Assembly: GCA_030625465.1 (NCBI GenBank)
Contig: DAOUQS010000011.1
Span: forward strand, 1 to 18,270
Length of the DNA: 18,270 nt
Origin: Amylibacter sp.
Lineage (GTDB): Bacteria; Pseudomonadota; Alphaproteobacteria; Rhodobacterales; Rhodobacteraceae
Direction of reading: 5' to 3'
The notes beneath the pieces are model-generated. The model searched no databases and was not told the origin of the DNA. It saw only the letters and a list, made by a program, of their open reading frames with translations. This document shows positions 5,988 to 16,410 of this stretch, piece by piece (positions within the stretch are counted from its first letter, which is position 1; each line of letters begins with the position of its first letter). The position numbers and the translations under genes were made by a program.

Positions 5988-7352
5988 TTATAAATGAGGT
6001 ACTGGTTCTTTTAGAAAAACTTCCCATATTGATTTCCAGATTTCAACCTGCCCGGTTGTTATGTTGGCCGAAAAGCGCTGCACGCCCGCGCCGCTATACC
6101 CGGAAGCCAGAATAATTTCCGCATTTCTTTTTGCATTGCCCTTTAAATCAAGAACGGCTTCCAGTTTTCCATTTGGCTTGCGCAGCACCGCAGCGGTTGT
6201 TGCAATAAGGTGTCCGGGGACCATGTGGTCTTTGCCCAAAGATACGATTGTAGGCGCACCAATTATAAACTTATCCGCGTCCTCTTTCTTTAGTGAAAAT
6301 GACACCGGAAATTCATTATCAATAGGCTGCAGTGTAAAAACGGGGTCGAATTTTTTATAATAATTCCCTGTTTTTGCAATTTTTGTGCCGACAACAGTTC
6401 CGGTTATAGTTGCATATATAAAATTATCATCCAGCTGTTCGTTCAAGTCGCGCAGCTTGCCGTCAAGATAGCGCATATCCTGTGTTGCCTGTTCAATCGC
6501 CGCCCCCAGTTCCTCTTCCTTTTGCAGCTTTCTCAGAAAATAATCTTTACGGGCCGTTTGTAATTTTTGGCGTATTTCCGTAATTTGAACGGTGGGCTGA
6601 AATTGGTCATCCACAACCGTGTTCATGTAGGCTTGACTTTTGTTAGCCGGATAATTGTTGCCATCTTCCCTGTCATATACGACCCTTGGATTTTGCCCCA
6701 GCGGTTGTTTGGTTAAATCACGCTGTTTGGCAATATTTTCCAATAATATGGAATGGTCTTCCAATGCTGCAATTGTCTCTTCAAGCGATTGATCCGCGAT
6801 TGCATTGCGTAAAAGTTCCCGCTCACATTGTTTGACCCTATAAGATACATCGAACTGATCAATAATGTGGTCGACTAGTTTTTGTGCATCATATGGAAGT
6901 TTGAATACAGATTTGTTAGACTGTAATGATACCAGACAATGAAGCTCAATAACCTTGAATGCAAATTCCCGCTGGGCGTCCTCGTAATCCAGTTTTATTG
7001 GTGCCGTCTGAACCGCACCTAACAGCTCACCTTTTTGAACAAGCTGTCCCGAGCTTACAAAAACCTGCTCCAATGCACCGTTAACGTGTGTTTCAATTGA
7101 TACGACAGGTGTAAGGTTTCGGATATGCGCCCATCCTCGTTTTGAAAAACTGATAGGAACCGCGTAAAAATCCAAGACCAAAATAAATGCGGCGATTGTA
7201 AACACCAGTGCAGCTGACACTAAAAGAAAACTTGATTGAAGGTATTGCACGGCCGTGGACTTTTTTTGCTCGGCTGCAATAAAAGCTTCCAGGTTTTGCC
7301 GCGTTAAAGATAATGTCCCTAAGCCTGGTTTTTGAATGCCAAACCTTCGCAT
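5988..7352 (-). CDS. HlyD-like periplasmic adaptor (membrane fusion protein)
   Basis: A 454-residue protein laid out like the adaptor of type I secretion systems: a cytoplasmic N-terminus (1-40), one membrane helix (about 42-61), and a biotinyl-lipoyl half-motif (about 85-113: VNGALEQVFVSSGQLVQKGE). Two long helical segments follow (about 120-215 and 255-308), then the second lipoyl half (about 311-341: ATITGTVVGTKIAKTGNYY) and a beta-barrel-like region (345-410). Such adaptors bridge an inner-membrane ABC protein to an outer-membrane channel; no TolC-like gene is in the window. Residues 215-255 form an unusual loop rich in Asn, Asp, Pro and Tyr between the helices. The ATG follows directly after the stop of the ABC-like gene, so the two are translationally coupled. 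It is the last gene of the minus-strand operon. Because its ABC partner is degenerate, a structural or sensing role is possible. Confidence 0.8.
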   Translation of the reverse strand: MRRFGIQKPGLGTLSLTRQNLEAFIAAEQKKSTAVQYLQSSFLLVSAALVFTIAAFILVLDFYAVPISFSKRGWAHIRNLTPVVSIETHVNGALEQVFVSSGQLVQKGELLGAVQTAPIKLDYEDAQREFAFKVIELHCLVSLQSNKSVFKLPYDAQKLVDHIIDQFDVSYRVKQCERELLRNAIADQSLEETIAALEDHSILLENIAKQRDLTKQPLGQNPRVVYDREDGNNYPANKSQAYMNTVVDDQFQPTVQITEIRQKLQTARKDYFLRKLQKEEELGAAIEQATQDMRYLDGKLRDLNEQLDDNFIYATITGTVVGTKIAKTGNYYKKFDPVFTLQPIDNEFPVSFSLKKEDADKFIIGAPTIVSLGKDHMVPGHLIATTAAVLRKPNGKLEAVLDLKGNAKRNAEIILASGYSGAGVQRFSANITTGQVEIWKSIWEVFLKEPVPHL

Positions 7353-9287
7353 TTAGCCCACCGCCTGTTCAATAGCGCCATTTTCAATTTGTGAATTTAG
7401 AAACCTAATGGTGATGCGGCGATAACCCGCTTTCTGCTTTTGCTCGAAACTGTCCGCATTGGATAGAATACGGGTTACCTCCATATTCTCTGATTTTTCA
7501 CCGTGTGTTACTTCGGTATCAACCTCCAGAAGCTCACCCCTGTCGTGCAGGGAAATTGTGACAGAGTTTACCCCGACCTTTAAATCAAAAATACTATTTT
7601 CTTCTTGTTTGCCGAAACTGTCACGCGGGGCTAAAAACAGCAAATCATTCGCCGCAAGCTTTACGCGCTCCCTGAATTTGTTCGGAAGGTTGATGCTTAG
7701 TTGCGCATCCAGCCAAAGGCCTAGACGAAATGCATCTCTTTTTGTTGGCTTGAATGAAACGCGCACCCATCGTTCATGGTGGCGCGCCAGAACTTCATTA
7801 ACGGGCCCGCGGTCGGTTACAATTCCACGATCCAGCTTAATGACCTCATCTGCGGCGGTCATTAAATAATCGTCATCAGTTGCTAACAATACAACCTTAC
7901 CATCTGTTTTTGCTTTTAATATCAATGCCAAAAGCGCCGCTTTAGAGGCCTTATCCAGAAATAATTCCGGCACGTCAAAAACCAAAATAGCGGGGTTCGT
8001 ATGGAAAGCCCGTGCAATAGACACAATTTGGCCCTGCGCACTGAAATTATTCTCCAACTGATCGTTTAATAAATCTTCGTCACGAAACACATCTTCATAC
8101 GGATCAAGTTGCATAATCACGTCCAAAGCGGCTAATTGGTCAGATTGTGGGTCAAACCCGGTAACATTATCAATGAACGAGCCGGGCAAATTAATTGGAC
8201 TGGAAGGGACATAACCTATCCAGTGTGGATCCAACCCGTTGCGCGCAGCGTTCTGGCCTGCGAATTCGATGCTTCCGGTTTCAAACCTTCCAGTTGCGAT
8301 TGATTTAAGGATTTTGGACTTTCCACAGCCGGATGGGCCAATGAATGCAAGGCATAGACCGGGAAAAACATCACCTGAAAATGCGGCAAACCCGTCCGCT
8401 TTTAGTGCTTTGACTGATAATATACCTGAATGGTTAACTGGGTTTGTATTTTTCGCACGTGCTTGCTCCCTGACTGACAGGATTTTCTCTAGTTGATCAA
8501 TATTATGCCTGGGGGTGCGTAGCGACTGAATTTGATAACACCTAATGAAAACTTCCAGATTTAATTGATTTATGAAAATCGTCGCAATCATTGTTCCTAG
8601 GGAAATACTTGATTCTATGCTCAACCAAGCTGTCATTAGTAAAACCACAACAAACGTAAAACGCCTTAGAAAACTTGTGGTTAACCATTGGCCCAAAGTT
8701 TGAAAATCCAATCGCTGTACAGATGGGAATTTACCTTGCGCAGCCATTTCATAAAATGCGGGACCCAAGCCGCATGCATCGATTTTATCCGCGTCGAAGT
8801 TAGGTAAATCAACATTCTGAAGCCGTTCTTTTCGTAAAGGTTTTCGGAATTTCCATGCTATGAATAAAACGGCGGCGGCGACAACTGAAGGAGCTGTAAG
8901 CAAAGGGTGAATGAACCCAACTAGAAAAGCCCAAAACAATGCAAAGTATGAATCCTGGAAGAATATCACGCCGCGCACATTCACCACATATCGTTGCAAT
9001 GCTTTCATACGCATCAACTCGATCAGGCAAACAGAAACAACAGTTGTGATGCCCAGATAAAAAAGTTTAGGCAAAGCATCACTGTTGCCCGACGGTATTA
9101 TTCTATCAACAATGATTAAAGCGATTGCGGGCAGGCCAACCAATAAGAAACTTGTCATAAAACCTAAAACACCTGATGCCAGCCGCATCCATGCAGGCAG
9201 ATACTGCCCCGGCTTCATATTCTTTGAAATGCCGCGGCTGGAGGTTTTCTTGCTGTTTGAATTAGGGACTGCTAAGTTGTGCAGCAT
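7353..9287 (-). CDS. ABC-exporter-like protein with degenerate ATPase motifs and an extra C-terminal domain
   Basis: Counting from the ATG at 9287 (AGGAGA six bases upstream) this is a 644-residue protein resembling the permease-ATPase of type I secretion. Hydrophobic segments lie near residues 36-60, 74-92, 112-145 and 208-240, and VDRIIPSG matches the usual x-D-R-V-x-P element after the first helix. The nucleotide-binding domain (about 286-500) has a perfect Walker A, GPSGCGKS (317-324). The Q-loop reads YVPSS (Ser for Gln), the signature reads NFSAQGQ, Walker B is LVFDVP (D438 kept, Val for the catalytic Glu), and the switch reads LLATDDD (Asp for His). Binding of ATP is plausible; normal hydrolysis is doubtful. 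Residues about 505-635 are not part of a standard exporter and have the strand-helix-helix-strands-helix-strand pattern of an RsbW-like HATPase. It lies 54 bases after the preceding gene and abuts the HlyD-like gene. Confidence 0.82.
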   Translation of the reverse strand: MLHNLAVPNSNSKKTSSRGISKNMKPGQYLPAWMRLASGVLGFMTSFLLVGLPAIALIIVDRIIPSGNSDALPKLFYLGITTVVSVCLIELMRMKALQRYVVNVRGVIFFQDSYFALFWAFLVGFIHPLLTAPSVVAAAVLFIAWKFRKPLRKERLQNVDLPNFDADKIDACGLGPAFYEMAAQGKFPSVQRLDFQTLGQWLTTSFLRRFTFVVVLLMTAWLSIESSISLGTMIATIFINQLNLEVFIRCYQIQSLRTPRHNIDQLEKILSVREQARAKNTNPVNHSGILSVKALKADGFAAFSGDVFPGLCLAFIGPSGCGKSKILKSIATGRFETGSIEFAGQNAARNGLDPHWIGYVPSSPINLPGSFIDNVTGFDPQSDQLAALDVIMQLDPYEDVFRDEDLLNDQLENNFSAQGQIVSIARAFHTNPAILVFDVPELFLDKASKAALLALILKAKTDGKVVLLATDDDYLMTAADEVIKLDRGIVTDRGPVNEVLARHHERWVRVSFKPTKRDAFRLGLWLDAQLSINLPNKFRERVKLAANDLLFLAPRDSFGKQEENSIFDLKVGVNSVTISLHDRGELLEVDTEVTHGEKSENMEVTRILSNADSFEQKQKAGYRRITIRFLNSQIENGAIEQAVG

Positions 9288-9341: not shown

Positions 9342-10802
9342 TTAATTTCGATTTTCTGCCTGCATTATTTTATTCACATAATCAGACAGTGAAATGAATT
9401 CACCCGTATTTTTTACTACGGAAGGCGCAGGTTCTTCCTGTTTTTCAACCGTACCATTCAGTTCTTCCAGCAAGCGTTCAACAATGTTTTTCTTTACCGA
9501 TATTTCCCCGTTTGCAGACGGATTCGATGTGCCAGAACCAATTGAGTTATCTTGTGTGGATTGTTTTAAAATACTTTCGACAACAAGCTTCCGAATCCTT
9601 TCCTCTTCGGAAATCTGTGGATTTGTACGTTCGGGCAGAATGCCTGTGCTTTTTGCATTTTCAGCCAGCCTTTGATATGCTTCGGATAATGATCCATTCT
9701 GCCTAGCGGTATTATTGTCTACGGGTCGTAGCTTATTTGATAACCTCAAGGACAGGTTGTCTATTTTTATTTCAAGGTTACGCAAAGACTCGTTTAATAA
9801 TGCCAGCTCTGCCACTATTTTGAGTGAAGTGCCTTGTGCATTTATTGGATTATACTGTGTTGCTTGAATAGTGTTTTGTCGCTGATTGTTTTGCGATGGT
9901 ATAACTTCAAACCTGTTTACATCCGCGGGTAAACTACGCCCTTGGGCCTGCCGCGCAAAGCTGTTTGCGAAGGTGTCGTAATCGCGGGTTGTAAGTGGTT
10001 GTGCGGGGACTGCTGGAAATTGGGTATTCCCGTTTGTTACCTTTTGCACATTTTGGCGTAATGCCTGTGTGGGTTGGGTCGTTTGAAGGCCGGCACTGCG
10101 TGTATTAACCCAGGCATCCGGTGACGTCAGGTCCGCATTTTGCTGGCCTGTTTGCTGGCTGGGGACGGGCCAACCCCTGGGAAATACAAAAGATGCCTGA
10201 TTTTGTGAGACCCACCTTAGATATGTAACCGTTGCTGCAAAACCGGAAAGTGAAAATGCCTGAAGTGTCTCCAATTCGCGGCGGATGATTAATTTCTCGC
10301 CCGTGGATAGAAGTGCTTCAAGCCTTTGGTCAATCGGACCTAGAATAGAATTAGGCAACGGCAATTCATTTTTCCGGTCGGAAATGAAAAATGTATCCGC
10401 AGGTGTGATCCCGGATATGTTGATCTGGGGATTTCCTTGTGGTGTTAGTCCGATTTCCAGTCCATTTTTTTGCGCTACGCATATCGTTGTTGCATTTTGG
10501 CATGTAACTTCAAATACATCTTCATCCAGCCTCGGGCTTGTACTGAAACGTGCATATCCATCAGGGTCAAACCGAAAATACACCCCTTCAACGAAGCCCT
10601 CTTGAAATGTTGGCCAGCCAAAAGATCCGCGGATTGTTTGTGCGCCTTCCCGCGCACCTATGGCAAAAGGTAACGAAGTATCCAGAATGGCGGTTGCGGT
10701 TTCAGTACCCTCACCGTTAACATTCTGGGCCAATGCCGGATTGGTTAACGGCAACAAACATATCAACAAGGCGGTGATGCATGTATATGATAAGGTTTTC
10801 AT
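9342..10802 (-). CDS. Secreted protein of unknown family with Gln/Asn/Pro-rich linker and coiled coil
   Basis: A 486-residue exported protein I cannot assign to a family. The signal peptide (residues 1-24, cleavage after ALA) is clear. Residues about 30-200 look folded: a beta-rich part (around GSFGWPTFQEGF and YFRFDPDGYARFS) with two cysteines (C101, C108) that could form a disulfide, then a helical part. Residues about 205-325 are rich in Gln, Asn, Thr and Pro and are probably an extended linker. Residues 326-358 form a likely coiled coil (L and I at heptad spacing). The tail holds two further charged helices (about 395-412 and 435-452) and a final segment. The start is the ATG at 10802, which overlaps the upstream TGA as ATGA and has GAAGGAAA upstream; a longer reading frame exists but lacks this support. 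The coupling suggests it works with the DUF3131 protein in the periplasm. Confidence 0.8.
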   Translation of the reverse strand: MKTLSYTCITALLICLLPLTNPALAQNVNGEGTETATAILDTSLPFAIGAREGAQTIRGSFGWPTFQEGFVEGVYFRFDPDGYARFSTSPRLDEDVFEVTCQNATTICVAQKNGLEIGLTPQGNPQINISGITPADTFFISDRKNELPLPNSILGPIDQRLEALLSTGEKLIIRRELETLQAFSLSGFAATVTYLRWVSQNQASFVFPRGWPVPSQQTGQQNADLTSPDAWVNTRSAGLQTTQPTQALRQNVQKVTNGNTQFPAVPAQPLTTRDYDTFANSFARQAQGRSLPADVNRFEVIPSQNNQRQNTIQATQYNPINAQGTSLKIVAELALLNESLRNLEIKIDNLSLRLSNKLRPVDNNTARQNGSLSEAYQRLAENAKSTGILPERTNPQISEEERIRKLVVESILKQSTQDNSIGSGTSNPSANGEISVKKNIVERLLEELNGTVEKQEEPAPSVVKNTGEFISLSDYVNKIMQAENRN

Positions 10803-12730
10803 TGGGTTTCCTTCGTTTGGGCCGGGTGTCGATAGGCGGGTAGCCAATCTGATTTTTGTGGTGGATCCGGCAGTCCGCGTTTTATGCGCAGGTCACGGTC
10901 ACGGAATTGTGTAAACCAGACTTCGGATGTGGCATTTGATGCCGTTAGAATTTTCCCCTGAACCTTGTGTAATAATGAGGCCAGTAAAATACCGTTATTG
11001 TTGGCTGTCTGGATTTCGATAAAGCCATTTCCGCCCTCGTACAGGCCTTCGTAAAAGCCCCGTTCTGGGTCGTATAATTCGATAACAGCTTCATAAAGAA
11101 TATCTGTGTAATAGGTTTCCCATAATGCCCACAATCCGAATGCCGCTTTTGTTGCAATGGCTGCATGTTCAGGTGCATAATCGCCCCTTGGCGTTACAGT
11201 ATTCCACGGATACCCATCCGAGAAAATTGTATCATAAGTGAAATAGGGCGGCCCCTTGACGTTGTGTTCGGACCGCGCGGTCATATACCCCTGAATTTCG
11301 TATCTATTTTGTTGAACCTGATAGATGCGATCTGCAAATTCGGCACGCCAACCGTCCGAATGCACTTGGTCATTTGAAGTATCGTCATGCGGCAGATCCC
11401 AATTCAATTCTAGGCCGTCCAGCAGGTAACTTTCAGTCACAACATAGTTTTGTGAATGGAATATCCGCGGATCACGACCATCATACGGGACACGCACATT
11501 AAAGATGTTTGTGGTCAAATATGGCTCTGCGCGATGTGCAAAATACGGCTTGAAACCCCAAAGTGCAAATCCCTTGGCGGCGTATTCCTCATAGCCAAGC
11601 CGGCCTTCTTGGGCGTAGACGGTTTCTTTGGTCTCTTTATCTATTGCGGCACCGTATAATACACCGTCGGCGTCTATAACATTCGCAAAATCCCAGCGTA
11701 AAAGCATTCTGTCGATCGTGTTGGCCAGATAAGGGTAACGATTTCGAACGATTCGCATCCACACCAGTAAACGCCCTAAATCCAGTGCTGAATATCCGAT
11801 TTCACCGATTTTATTCGTATAATCAACTTGTTCGCCGGTTTTCGTATTATAGACTTTATTGGGGAGTTCCCGCCGAAATAATTTAAGGTTCCGCAATGTT
11901 GTCAGCAGCTTGAGCATACGCTTATCGAATTCCGGTTTTTCAATCAAACACAGCTCAAACGCGGAGACCAGGCCGCTGACATATGATGCCGTATCCCACA
12001 TGGTTGTAGAAGGGTATCCGCCTACCGAATTGGCCAACCCTGTGGTTTCTTGTGTGAATTTCTCAAAATAACCCCATGCGACTTTGGCGGCTTTCAGTTC
12101 CCGTTCATTCAGAAACCCCCGGCGCTGTTTATAGTCACGAACATAAGCATTACTTTTTTTGTAGCCCGTTTTTGCCTGCGCATTCAAACCATCAAGCCTG
12201 TCAAAATAATTTTCCGGCATTTTACACATTCTGAGTGGTGCGAACCGTTTCGGCTGGCCTGTCACAGTAGCCATGGTTTCTATCGGGATCGCACCGCGCA
12301 TCAAGCTTGGTAATTGTTGTAAATTGGTTTCTGCCTGTGGTGTTAAAGTCATTGCACCCAGATTAAAGTCGGCAGGATCATAAATTTTCGCGTCGGTTAA
12401 GGCATTATTCGCCTTCCTATTACCTAAGGAAAGTTTTTGTTGGGCGTTTATCTTGTCTGCCTCTTCTTGCAGATCTTCCCTTCGTTCAATGCGTGCTTTT
12501 TCCTTGGCCATATTACCAACGACTGTTTCGCCGACAGCTTGTCCCAGGATAAGCACTGCTGCAAGAAATCCGCAGGTAACCAAAATGGCCCCTAAACCAA
12601 TCGCCAGTTTTCGAATTTCCAAATTAATAGATAACACACTTACATCCAGTCTGGCCCGTGTAGCGGACATTTCTAATTTGTTTCTAGGGGGATTCAGTAA
12701 ATTTCGTGATAACTGCCAAGAGTAATTCAC
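10799..12730 (-). CDS. Membrane-anchored DUF3131 (glycosidase-like fold) protein
   Basis: A 643-residue protein with one N-terminal membrane helix (about 43-65), a charged helical stalk (73-100), and a large periplasmic domain. Residues about 212-590 match DUF3131. The diagnostic segment is AWGYFEKFTQETTGLANS then MWDTASYVSGLVSA (to about 256), followed by repeated helical hairpins with conserved aromatics and acids (RWDF, LYGA, GLYEGG). DUF3131 is, to my knowledge, related to alpha/alpha six-hairpin glycosidases and often encoded near glycan genes. A glycan-binding or glycan-cleaving role is therefore inferred, not shown. Candidate acids include D246, E310 and E538; I cannot say which are catalytic. 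The long start is GTG at 12730 without a clear ribosome binding site; ATG at 12670 also keeps the membrane helix. Its TGA overlaps the next start as ATGA. Confidence 0.85.
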   Translation of the reverse strand: MNYSWQLSRNLLNPPRNKLEMSATRARLDVSVLSINLEIRKLAIGLGAILVTCGFLAAVLILGQAVGETVVGNMAKEKARIERREDLQEEADKINAQQKLSLGNRKANNALTDAKIYDPADFNLGAMTLTPQAETNLQQLPSLMRGAIPIETMATVTGQPKRFAPLRMCKMPENYFDRLDGLNAQAKTGYKKSNAYVRDYKQRRGFLNERELKAAKVAWGYFEKFTQETTGLANSVGGYPSTTMWDTASYVSGLVSAFELCLIEKPEFDKRMLKLLTTLRNLKLFRRELPNKVYNTKTGEQVDYTNKIGEIGYSALDLGRLLVWMRIVRNRYPYLANTIDRMLLRWDFANVIDADGVLYGAAIDKETKETVYAQEGRLGYEEYAAKGFALWGFKPYFAHRAEPYLTTNIFNVRVPYDGRDPRIFHSQNYVVTESYLLDGLELNWDLPHDDTSNDQVHSDGWRAEFADRIYQVQQNRYEIQGYMTARSEHNVKGPPYFTYDTIFSDGYPWNTVTPRGDYAPEHAAIATKAAFGLWALWETYYTDILYEAVIELYDPERGFYEGLYEGGNGFIEIQTANNNGILLASLLHKVQGKILTASNATSEVWFTQFRDRDLRIKRGLPDPPQKSDWLPAYRHPAQTKETQ

Positions 12731-12748: not shown

Positions 12749-13198
12749 TTAACAAAAATTAAGAACCAGACGGTTTTCATGTGCAACACGGCGAAACGTA
12801 AAAGAAGTGGTGATTTCACGGATCAGCAACCAGCCAAACCCACCTTCGGGCAAGTCTTCCAAATCGACTTCGCCCTGTAATGGTGTTTCCTTGGTTTCGG
12901 GGGGGGTAAATTCTTTTCCATTGTCGCAAATTTTGGCTACGATAACATTGTTTGTCACGTCAATATCGATACTTACATGGCCGGATCTTTCAAAGGGGAA
13001 TCCGTGTTCGATGACATTGTTCAACGCCTCTGCGATCACAATTTGCACATCGATAATTTTTCCATGGGGGATACCTGTCTGTACCAGCCACTTGCCAACA
13101 TCATCTAGCAAGCCCGGCACAAGTCCCTGACAGTTCGTGATATTTTTATGAAAGGAAAAACCGGTTTGTCTTTTGTGTTTATGAATATTCACATTCAT
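12749..13198 (-). CDS. RsbW-like serine kinase / anti-sigma-type HATPase
   Basis: A 149-residue cytoplasmic single-domain GHKL ATPase of the RsbW/SpoIIAB type. The N-box is AEALNNVIEHGF with E57 and N61, the G1 box is CDNGKEF with D92 and G94, and the glycine lid is LPEGGFGWLLI (G119, G120, G122). These proteins bind ATP, phosphorylate a STAS partner on Ser, and otherwise hold a target protein inactive. All nucleotide-binding elements look intact, so activity is likely. The ATG begins directly after the stop of the STAS gene, the usual antagonist-kinase pairing. No sigma factor is encoded nearby, so the held target is unknown; the C-terminal region of the ABC-like protein or a distant sigma factor are candidates. 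Confidence 0.9.
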   Translation of the reverse strand: MNVNIHKHKRQTGFSFHKNITNCQGLVPGLLDDVGKWLVQTGIPHGKIIDVQIVIAEALNNVIEHGFPFERSGHVSIDIDVTNNVIVAKICDNGKEFTPPETKETPLQGEVDLEDLPEGGFGWLLIREITTSFTFRRVAHENRLVLNFC

Positions 13199-13555
13199 TT
13201 AGGATAATTGCCCTTCTGTATTCTTGGCAGCTTGAAGTGCATCTTCGACAGAGCGATGAACGCGGAATACTTCATCCATACGGGTTAATTTGAATACTTT
13301 TTCAACCATTGGGGTTAGCCCGGTGATTTCAAATTTTTTGTCTGCCCCCATGTATTTCATCACTGAAACCAGCGCGCCCAAACCAGAGCTGTCCATGAAT
13401 TCAACTTTTGTCATATCAAGTAGTATGTATTCGACGCCTTCATCGGCGACCGCACGAATACCCTCTTTGAACTGAATAGCATGTGCCGCATCCAGACGGG
13501 ATTCTTCCAGTTTAAGATGTGTGACCGTTCCGTTTTGTATTGTTTCAAAATTCAT
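13199..13555 (-). CDS. STAS-domain anti-sigma factor antagonist (SpoIIAA/RsbV-like)
   Basis: A 118-residue single STAS domain. The phosphorylation loop is FMDSSGLGALV, with D55 and S56-S57. S57 aligns with the Ser that RsbW-type kinases phosphorylate in SpoIIAA. Other family features are LLDMTKVEF before the loop and F-K-L-T-R-M-D-E-V-F-R-V-H near the end. When unphosphorylated, such proteins bind the partner kinase and release its target. The ATG overlaps the acyltransferase stop (ATGA at 13552-13555) and the stop abuts the kinase start, so acyltransferase, STAS and kinase are probably made in fixed proportion. That ties the switch physically to a membrane acyltransferase and the downstream envelope genes. 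Confidence 0.93.
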   Translation of the reverse strand: MNFETIQNGTVTHLKLEESRLDAAHAIQFKEGIRAVADEGVEYILLDMTKVEFMDSSGLGALVSVMKYMGADKKFEITGLTPMVEKVFKLTRMDEVFRVHRSVEDALQAAKNTEGQLS

Positions 13556-14724
13556 CTGTTACTCCTTTTTGTTATCTTAGGCTGTATAAACCTTGAGATT
13601 TGGCTAATGTTTGGGAAAATTCCCAATCCGATTGTCCAGCCAAGCCCCGGTATTTTCGATAAAACCACAACAGTAATGCTCGACATCAAAATGGCCCATG
13701 TGACCTTTGACAGAACAAAAACAATTGGTGACAAAGTACTATCCCATAAGGTTATTTCCGCTAGATCCAGAAATGCGGGATGCACAAGATATATTCCAAA
13801 GCTATACGGGGCCAAACGTGATAACCAATAAAACCCGCTAAGGCGTTGGCTTGACATAAACAGGAAAAATAAAACGACCGGCATTAAGAAATCAGCCCAA
13901 AACCCAGGTGCATAATTAAATTGCCAGTTTCCGGATTGTATAACACGCATGCTATAAATCAGCTTTAACAGATATAGAATAATACCGGTAAACAGGATCA
14001 TGTTAAAATACGGGGCCAGACCGTTACGGACATTTATATTCTTGTAAATACCCAACCCTGCGGCGGCGACAAAACCATATCCCACGTAAGTAATAATTTT
14101 CACAAACCGGATCAGATAGTCGATACCGGGCACCACATCCGAATGTGCCCATAACCAGATATCAACCTCGCGCTTTGTAAACAGACAAAGCAATACCAAC
14201 ACGCCAATCCACGGTTTTTCAACGGCAATCCAGTAAATCGGATACAACAGAACCAAGCAAAAAAGCGTTGGCAAAAAATGCATGTGGTATTGAACATCCC
14301 CCAGCAAAACAAATCCAACCCAGTCAACAGGGTTGGCCAGCTGCGCCCAAATCGCATCTTTATAACCGAAGAAATGCGCTTTGATCAGGCGGTAAAATGC
14401 GTAAAAGGCCACCCAGAATAAAAACGGCCGCATTAACCTTTTGCTTTGTTTGGTGATCACGGCAGTATAATTGCGCGGGCGATTGTCCAGCGATAAAAAC
14501 AACAGGAAAAGCGCTATGATGATAAACAGTTCTGTGCGGGCCAGATACATCACCGAACGGAACATCACCGGACCGGTGCGTTCCCACAGGCTGAAATCGG
14601 GGAACGGCTGCCCGTTTACATCCGAAGAGGCGTGCAATCCCACCATTGATACGCCTGCGATCAAACGCAGGCCGTCAATCCATACCATTCTGTCCGCTGA
14701 TTCCTGAATCACGCAATCCTTCAT
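13552..14724 (-). CDS. Acyltransferase family 3 membrane protein (OafA-like)
   Basis: A 390-residue integral membrane protein with about ten hydrophobic helices and the Acyl_transf_3 N-terminal signature: W15-I-D-G-L-R20 and, in the first helix, H31 (GLHAS), the conserved His of O-acyltransferases. Near the C-terminus, LSRLAPYSFGIYLVHP is typical of the family. Members move acetyl or other acyl groups onto sugars of polysaccharide, lipopolysaccharide or peptidoglycan. The substrate is unknown; the operon's DUF3131 protein suggests a glycan. The ATG at 14724 has GAAAG four bases upstream; a TTG at 14733 would add three residues. It is the first gene of the seven-gene operon and faces the divergent ompA-like gene across about 130 bases. 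Confidence 0.9.
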   Translation of the reverse strand: MKDCVIQESADRMVWIDGLRLIAGVSMVGLHASSDVNGQPFPDFSLWERTGPVMFRSVMYLARTELFIIIALFLLFLSLDNRPRNYTAVITKQSKRLMRPFLFWVAFYAFYRLIKAHFFGYKDAIWAQLANPVDWVGFVLLGDVQYHMHFLPTLFCLVLLYPIYWIAVEKPWIGVLVLLCLFTKREVDIWLWAHSDVVPGIDYLIRFVKIITYVGYGFVAAAGLGIYKNINVRNGLAPYFNMILFTGIILYLLKLIYSMRVIQSGNWQFNYAPGFWADFLMPVVLFFLFMSSQRLSGFYWLSRLAPYSFGIYLVHPAFLDLAEITLWDSTLSPIVFVLSKVTWAILMSSITVVVLSKIPGLGWTIGLGIFPNISQISRFIQPKITKRSNR

Positions 14725-14856
14725 AACTTTCAAGAATTACTGACACATCTTTCCTAGCAAATTATTACCAATTAAAATTGAAACTATATTTGTTGATCAG
14801 GTTACCAAATCTTCACTGGTTTTGCGTATTCAATATGTAATTGGAGGATCGCAGGA
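14725..14856. promoter_or_regulatory. Divergent intergenic region between acyltransferase operon and OmpA–caspase pair
   Basis: This AT-rich gap must hold promoters for both directions. I see no confident -35/-10 pair. It contains two direct copies of TTACCAA at 14765-14771 and 14802-14808 (37 bases start to start), and a strong Shine-Dalgarno GGAGG at 14843-14847 for the + strand gene. The direct copies could be an operator but may be chance in AT-rich DNA. Confidence 0.4.
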
Positions 14857-15531
14857 ATGAAATCAGTCTACTTTTTTGCCATTATTTTTTTGGCGTTTCA
14901 AATAACGGGGCAAAGCCGGGCCCAGGTTAAATTGCCGTTGGATGCCAGTAATTGTGCCATTTTCAACGCGCTTAATTCCGACAATACACTCTATTGTAGG
15001 CAAGCAGTAAACTTGGGCACGCCTCGCGGGTTGATTGTTACCCTTGGCGGGCTTGTATCGACATCTGAGACACAGAAAACAGCGGCCAAACCACCCGCCC
15101 CTAAGGATAGCCTGACGATTGTTAAGCGGCCGGATATTGTTAAAATAGACCATAAGGCGGCTAAATCAGAAACGGGGTACTATATTCATTTTGCATTTGA
15201 TTCAGATACTCTTGAAAAATCCTACCGCGATCATCTGGATCGTTTGGCGATTGTTTTGAATTCGGAATCGATGAAGGAAAACTGTGTTAAAATTACCGGC
15301 CATACGGATACGGTCGGGAACTTAACTTATAATCTTGACCTGTCGCGTCGGCGGGCAAAATCAGTGTATAATTATCTAGGCAGTCTGAAACAGGTCGACA
15401 AAAATAGGTTTACGGTTGAAGCATTGGGCGAAAGCCAGCCCCTTCCGGATAAGTCGGGCGCAAGCCCATACAACCGGCGCGTGGAATTTTCATCAAAAAC
15501 CGATGCCGCTAAATGTACGCCGGATAGCTGA
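14857..15531 (+). CDS. Periplasmic OmpA-family (peptidoglycan-binding) protein
   Basis: A 224-residue exported protein with a signal peptide (about 1-22, cleavage after SRA). A short N-terminal region has two cysteines (C33, C47), followed by a linker rich in Lys, Ala and Pro, and then an OmpA C-terminal domain (about 107-213). That domain shows FAFDSDTL, ITGHTDTVG and YNLDLSRRRAKSVYNYL. D151 and R166 occupy the positions of the diaminopimelate-contacting Asp and Arg of E. coli OmpA, so binding to peptidoglycan is likely. There is no lipobox and no N-terminal beta barrel, so it is probably a soluble periplasmic protein. The ATG has GGAGG nine bases upstream. The next gene starts at the base after its stop, implying tight coupling with the caspase-like protein. 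Confidence 0.9.
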   Translation: MKSVYFFAIIFLAFQITGQSRAQVKLPLDASNCAIFNALNSDNTLYCRQAVNLGTPRGLIVTLGGLVSTSETQKTAAKPPAPKDSLTIVKRPDIVKIDHKAAKSETGYYIHFAFDSDTLEKSYRDHLDRLAIVLNSESMKENCVKITGHTDTVGNLTYNLDLSRRRAKSVYNYLGSLKQVDKNRFTVEALGESQPLPDKSGASPYNRRVEFSSKTDAAKCTPDS

Positions 15532-16410
15532 ATGGGTGGCGGGTTATATAAGTTTGTGTTTGTGTTTGGGCTGATCTTTTCAGGGCTTTATCCAGCCACC
15601 CTGTATGCGCAATACAATGGCAATAAAATCGCTTTAGTTATCGGCAATACAGAATACACAAATCTGCCACGGTTAAAAAATGCAACAAAAGATGCCTTGT
15701 CCGTTGCCCGTGCATTATCAGACAAAGGGTTCACTGTATTTTTTGCCAGTGATGTGGACGCAGCCAAGCTAAAAGAAACTATTACATTCGTGTCTGCACA
15801 AGCGGTTGATGCCGACCAGATCGTAATTTATTATGCTGGCCATAATGAGATTAGGAACGGAACTTCGCACTTGATCCCGGTTAATGGCAGCCGTGGTTCC
15901 AAATCAACCGGCACCCAATCGCTTTCTATTCCCGATTTGCTGAATTTCTTCGATATTCCGTTTGCGCAAAAAGCAATTATTCTGGATACCTGCCTGCAGG
16001 ATTCCCCCGAGGCATATCAAACTGGCACGCAAACCCTGTCTTTACCCAAGGCCCTTGGGCTGGAAACGCTGTTGGTTTTCGCAACTTCCTTTGGCCAGGC
16101 GGCATATGACGGCACCGGCAATCATAGTGTTTTCACCGGTGCCTTGCTGGACTATATGGCACAAGATAGTCTTGACCTGCAAAGCGCTGCGCAAACGGTT
16201 CGAAAAGATGTTATTCTGGCCTCTCGGGCCAACCAAATTCCGGTTAGCATATCCACGTTAACCCACCCCTATATCCTGAATGCACATGGGATATCTTCGC
16301 AAAGTTTCAGATCGCGAAATGACCTTGTTCAATCCTATTCAAGCTCGGGTTTTGCCGATAAACCGTTGCTGGATATTATAGCGCTGGGGATAAACCCCGC
16401 AGATTTTTAA
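15532..16410 (+). CDS. Secreted caspase-like (peptidase C14) protein
   Basis: A 292-residue protein with a signal peptide (about 5-26, cleavage near LYAQ) followed by a caspase-hemoglobinase fold. KIALVIGNTEYTNLPRLKNA is the typical first strand and loop, YYAGH carries the candidate catalytic H104, and ILDTC the candidate C154. The usual G after the His (GHG) is N here. Residues about 255-292 form a short C-terminal tail with no recognised domain. Bacterial C14 proteins are Cys proteases that usually cut after basic or acidic residues; the substrate is unknown, and a periplasmic location is expected from the signal peptide. It follows the OmpA-like gene with no gap and faces away from the acyltransferase/ABC operon, so its partner or target may be one of those envelope proteins. 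Confidence 0.87.
   Translation: MGGGLYKFVFVFGLIFSGLYPATLYAQYNGNKIALVIGNTEYTNLPRLKNATKDALSVARALSDKGFTVFFASDVDAAKLKETITFVSAQAVDADQIVIYYAGHNEIRNGTSHLIPVNGSRGSKSTGTQSLSIPDLLNFFDIPFAQKAIILDTCLQDSPEAYQTGTQTLSLPKALGLETLLVFATSFGQAAYDGTGNHSVFTGALLDYMAQDSLDLQSAAQTVRKDVILASRANQIPVSISTLTHPYILNAHGISSQSFRSRNDLVQSYSSSGFADKPLLDIIALGINPADF

Follow-up and report, generated by a model that had tools for sequence, protein, structure and literature searches.

The window analysed here is a stretch of 18,270 nucleotides from Amylibacter sp. (Rhodobacteraceae), taken from a genome that is 84% complete. On its minus strand lies an open reading frame, with its ATG at 9287 and its stop codon at 7353–7355, whose 644-residue product reads by its sequence as an ATP-binding cassette (ABC) half-exporter of the PrtD kind found in type I secretion systems (T1SS), with ATP hydrolysis lost. 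The protein represents a fixed hydrolysis-dead T1SS-type exporter with a C-terminal tail of predicted RsbW fold, tied to a GT2/DUF3131 polysaccharide system of the Rhodobacteraceae, and this dead form persists in many marine bacteria. An earlier note, made from the letters of the window alone, had described an intact Walker A motif beside the loss of all other hydrolysis motifs in a lone half-transporter and had proposed that ATP is bound as a switch or scaffold. That observation was right and indeed understated, and the interpretation is partly supported; what the note did not mention is the deletion of the cytoplasmic coupling loop ICL1 (coupling helix 1), the predicted RsbW-fold tail, the abutting HlyD gene, and the surrounding polysaccharide and partner-switch cluster. 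The gene and its parts are as follows (NBD, nucleotide-binding domain):

7353..9287, minus strand: hydrolysis-dead PrtD-like ABC half-exporter, 644 residues (PF00005, E 2.6e-10; TIGR01842, E 1.3e-25; fold 5l22; motif alignment)
8448..9200, minus strand: membrane domain, residues 30–280, six long predicted helices, ICL1 deleted (alignment and prediction)
7776..8426, minus strand: NBD, residues 288–504, catalytic motifs lost (alignments)
8316..8339, minus strand: Walker A GPSGCGKS, intact, residues 317–324 (Lys in 111/111 proteins)
8202..8204, minus strand: Q-loop position in YVPSS, Ser362 in place of Gln (Gln in 0/111)
8028..8048, minus strand: degenerate signature NFSAQGQ, with NFSAQ (residues 414–418) at the LSGGQ position (alignments)
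7968..7988, minus strand: Walker B ILVFDVP, residues 434–440, Asp438 retained, Val439 in place of Glu (Asp in 111/111, Glu in 0/111)
7875..7877, minus strand: H-loop position in LLATDDD, Asp471 in place of His (His in 0/63 with one gap, and in 3/48)
7356..7775, minus strand: C-terminal tail, residues 505–644, predicted RsbW/SpoIIAB fold with degenerate kinase ATP boxes (predicted model)

An AGGAG sequence sits 7 bases 5' of the start codon, in agreement with the earlier description of a long frame with a strong ribosome binding site, and the opposite strand over the same interval is rich in stops in the one frame translated. A wrong reading frame was excluded on these grounds. The ABC ATPase family PF00005 matches the product (E 2.6e-10), and the top-scoring NCBIfam model is PrtD (TIGR01842, E 1.3e-25), although the score of 89.9 bits is far below the model's cut-off of 510. 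Likewise, the solved fold nearest to the whole predicted model, which shows the six-membrane-helix exporter fold at a predicted template-modelling score (pTM) of 0.46, is that of PrtD (5l22_B, E 2.4e-18). The closest relatives named by organism are the Amylibacter proteins P0012 and P0023. A search of a plasmid collection gave no match, and the family was not seen among the matches listed for the open-access literature.

The motif states were followed across two clades of homologues. Clade A comprises 63 full or partial proteins including that of the window (P0025, P0026 and P0063 being examples of partial ones), and clade B comprises 48 more distant proteins, namely 37 from the database, one from genome G033 and ten from loci, with some duplicates where loci and database overlap. 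A first motif alignment (A1) used 34 of 70 relatives and another (A2) 16 proteins, and the gap-free alignment of dead against live proteins was made on a chosen set. The Walker A Lys and the Walker B Asp are each retained in 63/63 and 48/48 proteins, respectively, and the final residue of GxxxxGK[ST] is Ser or Thr in 111/111, the second Gly being Ala in one row. Conversely, the Q-loop Gln occurs in 0/63 proteins of clade A and 0/48 of clade B, the catalytic Glu of Walker B likewise in 0/63 and 0/48, and the H-loop His in 0/63 (one row gapped) and 3/48. The substitutions read from the single sequence (Ser for Gln in YVPSS, Val for Glu in LVFDVP, Asp for His in LLATDDD) were thus borne out by the homologue alignment that the earlier note had called for; three clade B proteins keep the His, and none keeps the Glu or the Gln. 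In live T1SS relatives, all three residues are retained in 16/16 rows, two of which are identical. The signature requires more care. Its degeneracy stands, both Gly being gone; aligned without gaps, LSxGQ corresponds to NFSAQ within the stretch NFSAQGQ, so that the final Gln survives. A one-residue deletion in LSGGQ, as suggested by the first alignment, was dropped accordingly. Gly is found at the fourth signature position in 2/63 proteins of clade A and 3/48 of clade B.

The replacements are themselves patterned. At the H-loop position Asp is found in 62/63 clade A proteins, and Glu (20), Asp (11) or Asn (6) together account for 37/48 in clade B. At the position of the catalytic Glu, clade A has Thr, Ser, Ala, Met or Gln in 57/63 proteins; clade B has Arg in 42/48, which looks selected and may provide a fixed contact to a bound nucleotide. 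Because the Walker A Lys/Ser and the Walker B Asp are kept, static binding of an Mg-nucleotide is most likely, and the fixation of these residues (Lys and Ser/Thr in Walker A, Asp in Walker B) fits binding without turnover. Slow hydrolysis by an unconventional arrangement would draw on the Arg of clade B and on the His kept in 3/48 of its proteins, yet it is very improbable given that Glu and Gln are absent from 111/111 proteins and His from 107/111, with one more gapped.

The membrane domain has been altered as well. The stretch aligned to window residues 92–118 (ICL1) is 27 residues long in 61/63 clade A and 46/48 clade B proteins, as against 59 residues in 8/8 tailed rows of live T1SS exporters and 63–67 residues in 8/8 other rows. 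The loop between transmembrane helices 4 and 5 is likewise shorter, at mostly 61 and 50 residues in the dead clades versus 74. The Q-loop has a role in signalling between ATP and the membrane domain (PMC7756269; here and below, statements from articles cited by PMC number refer to the portions of text accessible). As judged from the alignments, the Q-loop and the coupling loop, both elements of the ATP–membrane signal, are lost together.

Codon comparisons revealed strong constraint on the gene. In six ortholog pairs the synonymous differences are near or past saturation and the nonsynonymous ones few. For the closest pair (G013–G020), the nonsynonymous (dN) and synonymous (dS) divergences are 0.060 and approximately 2.0 over the whole gene, and 0.024 versus approximately 2.2 in the dead NBD, where dN is below that of the whole protein in 6/6 pairs. 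Purifying selection on the dead NBD is strong and the gene is not decaying, as the earlier note had argued from the frame. Both clades show the same motif losses, which extend over 15 genera in the family sample. One orthologue, from a metagenome-assembled genome (G001), is broken and reads as two overlapping frames (locus L040, 2479–4065 and 4047–4412), where assembly error and real decay are indistinguishable; the remaining genomes have full-length frames, save where a contig ends. The split orthologue could be taken to favour a decaying pseudogene or a local mutant, but this explanation is barely credible in view of the full-length frames elsewhere, the fixed Lys and Asp, the low dN of the NBD and the occurrence of the same losses in two clades and 15 genera; it was rejected as contradicted by the motif conservation and the selection analysis.

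A tree was calculated from window columns 30–504 without the motif columns, using 24 of the 63 clade A proteins, 26 of clade B (the 48 were reduced to 43 by dropping those of <560 residues or with identity ≥90%, and the first 26 were taken), eight tailed T1SS exporters and eight others. The 50 dead rows included all fall into a single clade (SH-aLRT 100) on a long stem, with the live tailed T1SS exporters as sister; the split joining dead and live tailed exporters against other T1SS has a support of 87. One ancient loss event is the simplest reading. The dead ABC shares ancestry with the live tailed exporters, and its ancestor would have been a PrtD-like T1SS ABC exporter that already bore the C-terminal tail.

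The live tailed exporters (L052–L055, L146–L154 and L157) are of approximately 640–710 residues and mostly stand beside genes for an RTX-repeat protein and HlyD. Those of other genera retain Gln, GQ and Glu in 9/9 and His in 7/9 cases, and RTX-repeat and HlyD genes adjoin 9/9. They were found in 9/248 genomes of the family, all of them among the 16 with the dead protein (0/232 others; Fisher 1.4e-12). The Fisher tests reported here ignore shared ancestry and the way the profiles were gathered, so that their p-values are a guide only; the live-tail profile was made from four same-genus rows and applied at E 1e-6, and divergent members may escape it. In two genomes of the same genus as the window, G005 and G027, the live tailed exporter is present and the dead one was not found.

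This distribution bears on the possibility that the dead protein pairs, in the manner of TAP or TmrAB, with a live half encoded at another locus and is itself the degenerate half of the heterodimeric exporter; the first candidate for the live half would be the tailed T1SS. Degeneration of one of the two sites has good precedent among heterodimers (PMC7756269), and the confinement of the live tailed exporter to genomes with the dead protein (9/16 versus 0/232) would fit such a pair. However, of the 16 genomes that encode the dead protein, seven yielded no live tailed T1SS at E 1e-6, two further matches being to the dead protein itself. The seven include G020, which is listed as 100% complete, and the genome of the window, at 84%; obligate pairing was dropped for this reason. 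The live tailed exporter has its own HlyD and RTX genes, and both ICL1 and the consensus signature, which a composite site would need from the dead half, have been lost. Furthermore, there is no second ABC match in 13 same-genus loci, and the other ABC ATPase matches, in the flanks of 5/14 loci (L077, L080, L084, L085 and L086), lie outside the cassette. Judged by the tailed live exporters and by the neighbouring genes, a heterodimer is considered unlikely.

The ABC gene forms part of a cassette, the other members of which in the window are:

5988..7352, minus strand: HlyD-like periplasmic adaptor, beginning right after the ABC stop codon (family models and conserved neighbourhood)
9342..10847, minus strand: "peri", a periplasmic-looking protein without a Pfam match (13/13 same-genus cassettes)
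10799..12730, minus strand: DUF3131 protein (PF11329, E 5.5e-114)
12749..13198, minus strand: RsbW-like HATPase of the anti-sigma kinase type that has the N-box, DxG and EGGFG boxes (family models and alignment)
13199..13555, minus strand: STAS protein of the RsbV/SpoIIAA type, with an invariant DSSGLG stretch (family models and alignment)
13552..14733, minus strand: acyltransferase (AcylT, Acyl_transf_3; PF01757, E 4.8e-27), called OpgC-like by analogy
14857..15531, plus strand: OmpA-family protein, a divergent conserved neighbour (family models and neighbourhood)
15532..16410, plus strand: caspase-domain (Peptidase_C14) protein, a conserved neighbour (family models and neighbourhood)

The description of the ABC protein as a lone half-transporter does not simply hold, since the ATG of the HlyD gene follows its stop codon. 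In 13 same-genus loci the order AcylT–STAS–RsbW–DUF3131–peri–ABC–HlyD is conserved together with the divergent OmpA–caspase pair; DUF3131, peri and ABC are present in 13/13, HlyD, STAS, RsbW and the OmpA–caspase pair in 12/13, and AcylT in 11/13. Contig ends truncate L044 and L050, whereas the missing AcylT of L049 is not so explained. Neither Pfam nor NCBIfam models match peri, the first 250 residues of which are conserved. In other genera the dead ABC lies in 11/14 loci around peri, and elsewhere in two more of those genomes. Among 26 loci from a reference collection, which share some genomes with the 14, HlyD stands beside the dead ABC in 25, DUF3131 is present in 25 (in L164 one gene matches both queries), peri in 24 and a cellulose-synthase-like GT2 within ≤10 kb in 19; the scan pattern included a degenerate Walker B (DRPE) and is uninformative on the frequency of Glu loss, so that these loci were used for their neighbours only.

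The association extends to whole genomes. Across the 248 genomes of the family, peri was detected in 17, and every one of the 16 with the tail is among these (Fisher 2.8e-24); the tail profile was built mainly from genomes found through peri and may likewise miss divergent members elsewhere. A scan of the class gave 2/289 genomes with peri or tail, both of the same family as the window. Within the genus, where at most 20 candidates per genome were scored, GT2 was found in 13/14 genomes with the dead ABC versus 4/19 without (Fisher 5.9e-5). There are five exceptions to this pairing: G011, G005 and G028 are <80% complete, G029 is 93% complete, and G009 holds a GT2 piece with stops.

The partner-switch set in the genome of the window is complete, comprising the STAS protein, the HATPase kinase and a SpoIIE-type phosphatase. 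The last is a REC–SpoIIE protein whose gene adjoins those of a GT2 synthase and of a second DUF3131 protein, on a contig other than that of the dead exporter (L102, 8140–9465 and 9542–12762). In clade B genomes the STAS domain is N-terminal in a larger protein of the GT2/AcylT cluster, with a match of E ≤0.01 in 8/9 proteins tested, seven of them above the Pfam cut-off; most of these proteins also have nucleotidyltransferase and hexapeptide parts. A STAS domain in this position was likewise seen in G033. STAS fused to a sugar-nucleotidyltransferase with hexapeptide repeats was observed in other genera (L078, 13144–14643; L079, L080, L083, L087 and L108), which might connect the switch with the supply of precursors.

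The C-terminal tail is predicted to adopt a kinase-dead RsbW fold. The solved folds nearest to its model are anti-sigma factors, some of them in complex with sigma or anti-anti-sigma factors. In RsbW-type kinases, the Glu...Asn of the N-box and the Gly-rich G2 box serve ATP and Mg. In the register of the pooled tail–RsbW profile alignment, the N-box Asn position of the tail is Leu or Phe in 62/63 clade A (one gap) and 41/48 clade B proteins, and the Gly-rich G2 pattern is found in 0/63 and 1/48. The acidic N-box residue is partly kept (Asp in 62/63 clade A, Glu or Asp in 48/48 clade B), as is the Asp of DxG (62/63 and 44/48). The clade B tail is homologous to that of the live T1SS exporters (hhalign 1.9e-10). 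Pfam gave no family for the tail of the window and scattered weak matches for other tails.

In principle, such a tail could make the protein a membrane-tethered anti-sigma factor that holds a sigma factor until the STAS protein displaces it. The nearest solved folds and the STAS gene in the same operon would suit this explanation. It is nonetheless quite improbable, in that no sigma factor is present among the proteins scanned by family models and a separate RsbW-like protein is already encoded in the operon.

The motif losses and their conservation, the loss of ICL1, the purifying selection, the ancestry shared with live tailed T1SS exporters, the cassette conservation and the genome co-occurrence are computed results, and the following mechanism would build on them. 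Once recruited to a polysaccharide system of GT2, DUF3131 and acyltransferase, the tailed exporter would have lost ATP hydrolysis and the usual coupling between NBD and membrane domain. The dead ABC, probably a homodimer, would reside with HlyD in the inner membrane and would serve the polysaccharide machine either as a scaffold under regulation or as a passive conduit, the role in polysaccharide export being likewise probable; a static nucleotide would hold this assembly of inner membrane and periplasm in shape. The kinase-dead RsbW-fold tail would probably be the docking site for the STAS protein of the operon, whose phosphorylation, set by the RsbW-like kinase and the REC–SpoIIE phosphatase, would determine whether it engages the dead exporter. 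We give about an even chance to the reading that results, in which the exporter binds nucleotide without hydrolysing it and, paired with HlyD, serves the polysaccharide machine as an envelope scaffold under STAS control. A bolder form is offered tentatively: a fixed double pseudoenzyme, made of a dead T1SS exporter and a kinase-dead RsbW-fold domain, would be the membrane receptor for STAS and the missing sigma-free, direct output of the polysaccharide partner switch, and the same switch would steer the live tailed sister to release its RTX protein.

A number of results weigh against the scaffold reading. With a pTM of 0.46, the domain arrangement cannot be read from the full-length model. The RsbW fold of the tail is predicted by a single AlphaFold model, for which 26 of 28 tails were aligned (A4, with L042, which holds an X, and L080 omitted). 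When separate tail profiles (tails >110 residues, 62/63 clade A and 47/48 clade B) were compared by hhalign with the RsbW of the cluster, values of 0.048, 0.066 and 0.042 were obtained for clade A, clade B and live T1SS tails, as against 0.031, 0.65 and 0.66 for STAS controls, so that clade A is no better than its control and the other two are weakly better. The pooled tail profile gave 0.0021 versus 0.56 for the STAS control, but at an hhalign probability of 13%, and a PDB profile search with the tail returned no RsbW and three unrelated matches at E of at least 0.31. Taken alone, the clade A tail is weakly matched to the live T1SS tail (0.0028), the link passing through clade B. An RsbW gene beside the ABC was not found in clade B loci with the one divergent query used, and no dead ABC was found in four same-genus genomes with GT2. 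Moreover, some such systems do without the dead ABC: in G113, genes for a peri-like protein, DUF3131, GT2 and RsbW are present, but the tail profile has no match. The locus in question (L089) carries GT2, two DUF3131 genes, a weak peri match, AcylT, RsbW and REC–SpoIIE; neither the dead exporter nor the tail was found, which makes it a natural point of comparison for the contribution of the exporter.

The same residues that would hold a static nucleotide might instead serve an ATP-gated passive channel, in which nucleotide binding alone opens a path for polymer pushed by GT2. The invariance of the Walker A Lys and of the Walker B Asp across 111/111 proteins, the adjacent HlyD partner and the presence of GT2 in the same system are all consistent with such a channel. 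Yet the signature, the Q-loop and ICL1 are lost, so that a new gating route would be needed, and cellulose-type GT2 synthases form their own membrane channel. A gated channel is thus unlikely, and the STAS-regulated scaffold is preferred.

In comparison with known systems, the dead ABC resembles PrtD-type T1SS (5l22; TIGR01842) in its best whole-model fold, its best-scoring NCBIfam model and the HlyD gene that follows; it differs in the lack of the hydrolysis motifs and ICL1, in the extra tail, and in that no RTX substrate gene was seen beside it. The live tailed T1SS exporters share a homologous tail and are sister on the tree, but they retain the catalytic residues and have an RTX-repeat frame adjacent. 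Transporters that are otherwise live are already known to contain a dead NBD in one of their halves: in the heterodimeric exporters TAP, TmrAB, TM287/288 and BmrCD, Glu loss occurs with H-loop or signature changes (PMC7756269). These keep one live site and a live partner, unlike the dead ABC, which has lost every site. A whole family from which the hydrolysis motifs and the coupling loop are gone, with the ATP-binding residues fixed, amounts to a natural experiment on the ABC fold without turnover.

On the side of regulation, the tail departs from the RsbW, SpoIIAB and UsfX kinases and from SiaB in having Leu/Phe for Asn, no G2 box and a fusion to an ABC protein. Each part of the proposed mechanism has a precedent. 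In MlaFB, the STAS protein MlaB binds and controls the ABC ATPase MlaF (PMC7367683); there MlaF is live and MlaB sits on the NBD itself, whereas the presumed dock here is the predicted RsbW-fold tail. In SypA/SypE and HmpUVW, STAS/kinase/phosphatase switches control polysaccharide; according to the accessible text, which mentions no dead ABC, it is unknown what unphosphorylated SypA acts on, and the target of HmpV has yet to be settled (PMC8256260). If the proposed docking is true, the tail is a concrete candidate for the direct target of unphosphorylated STAS in polysaccharide partner switches such as that of SypA. Catalytically dead domains also act as regulators or recruiters in synthase-dependent exopolysaccharide secretion, as in BcsE and PelD; as far as the accessible text goes, these are degenerate RecA-like, REC and GGDEF modules, with no ABC exporter (PMC7439463).

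The gene content is closest in kind to "block 3b" of Klebsiella, which contains a cellulose synthase, three DUF3131 proteins, OpgC and an anti-sigma factor with its antagonist (PMC12974863). The GT2, DUF3131, acyltransferase and partner-switch core is common to both, although the accessible description of block 3b, on which alone the comparison was made, names no ABC or HlyD. The function of DUF3131 is not stated in the accessible parts of PMC12974863 or PMC6382750. The combination of a dead ABC, an RsbW-fold tail and a polysaccharide switch was not found among the matches listed for the open-access literature. The OmpA–caspase pair (window 14857–16410) stands beside the cassette in 12/13 same-genus loci, the thirteenth (L044) ending at a contig edge. 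Cultured hosts that carry the cluster are Phaeobacter italicus (CECT 7645), Shimia marina (CECT 7688) and a Sulfitobacter sp.

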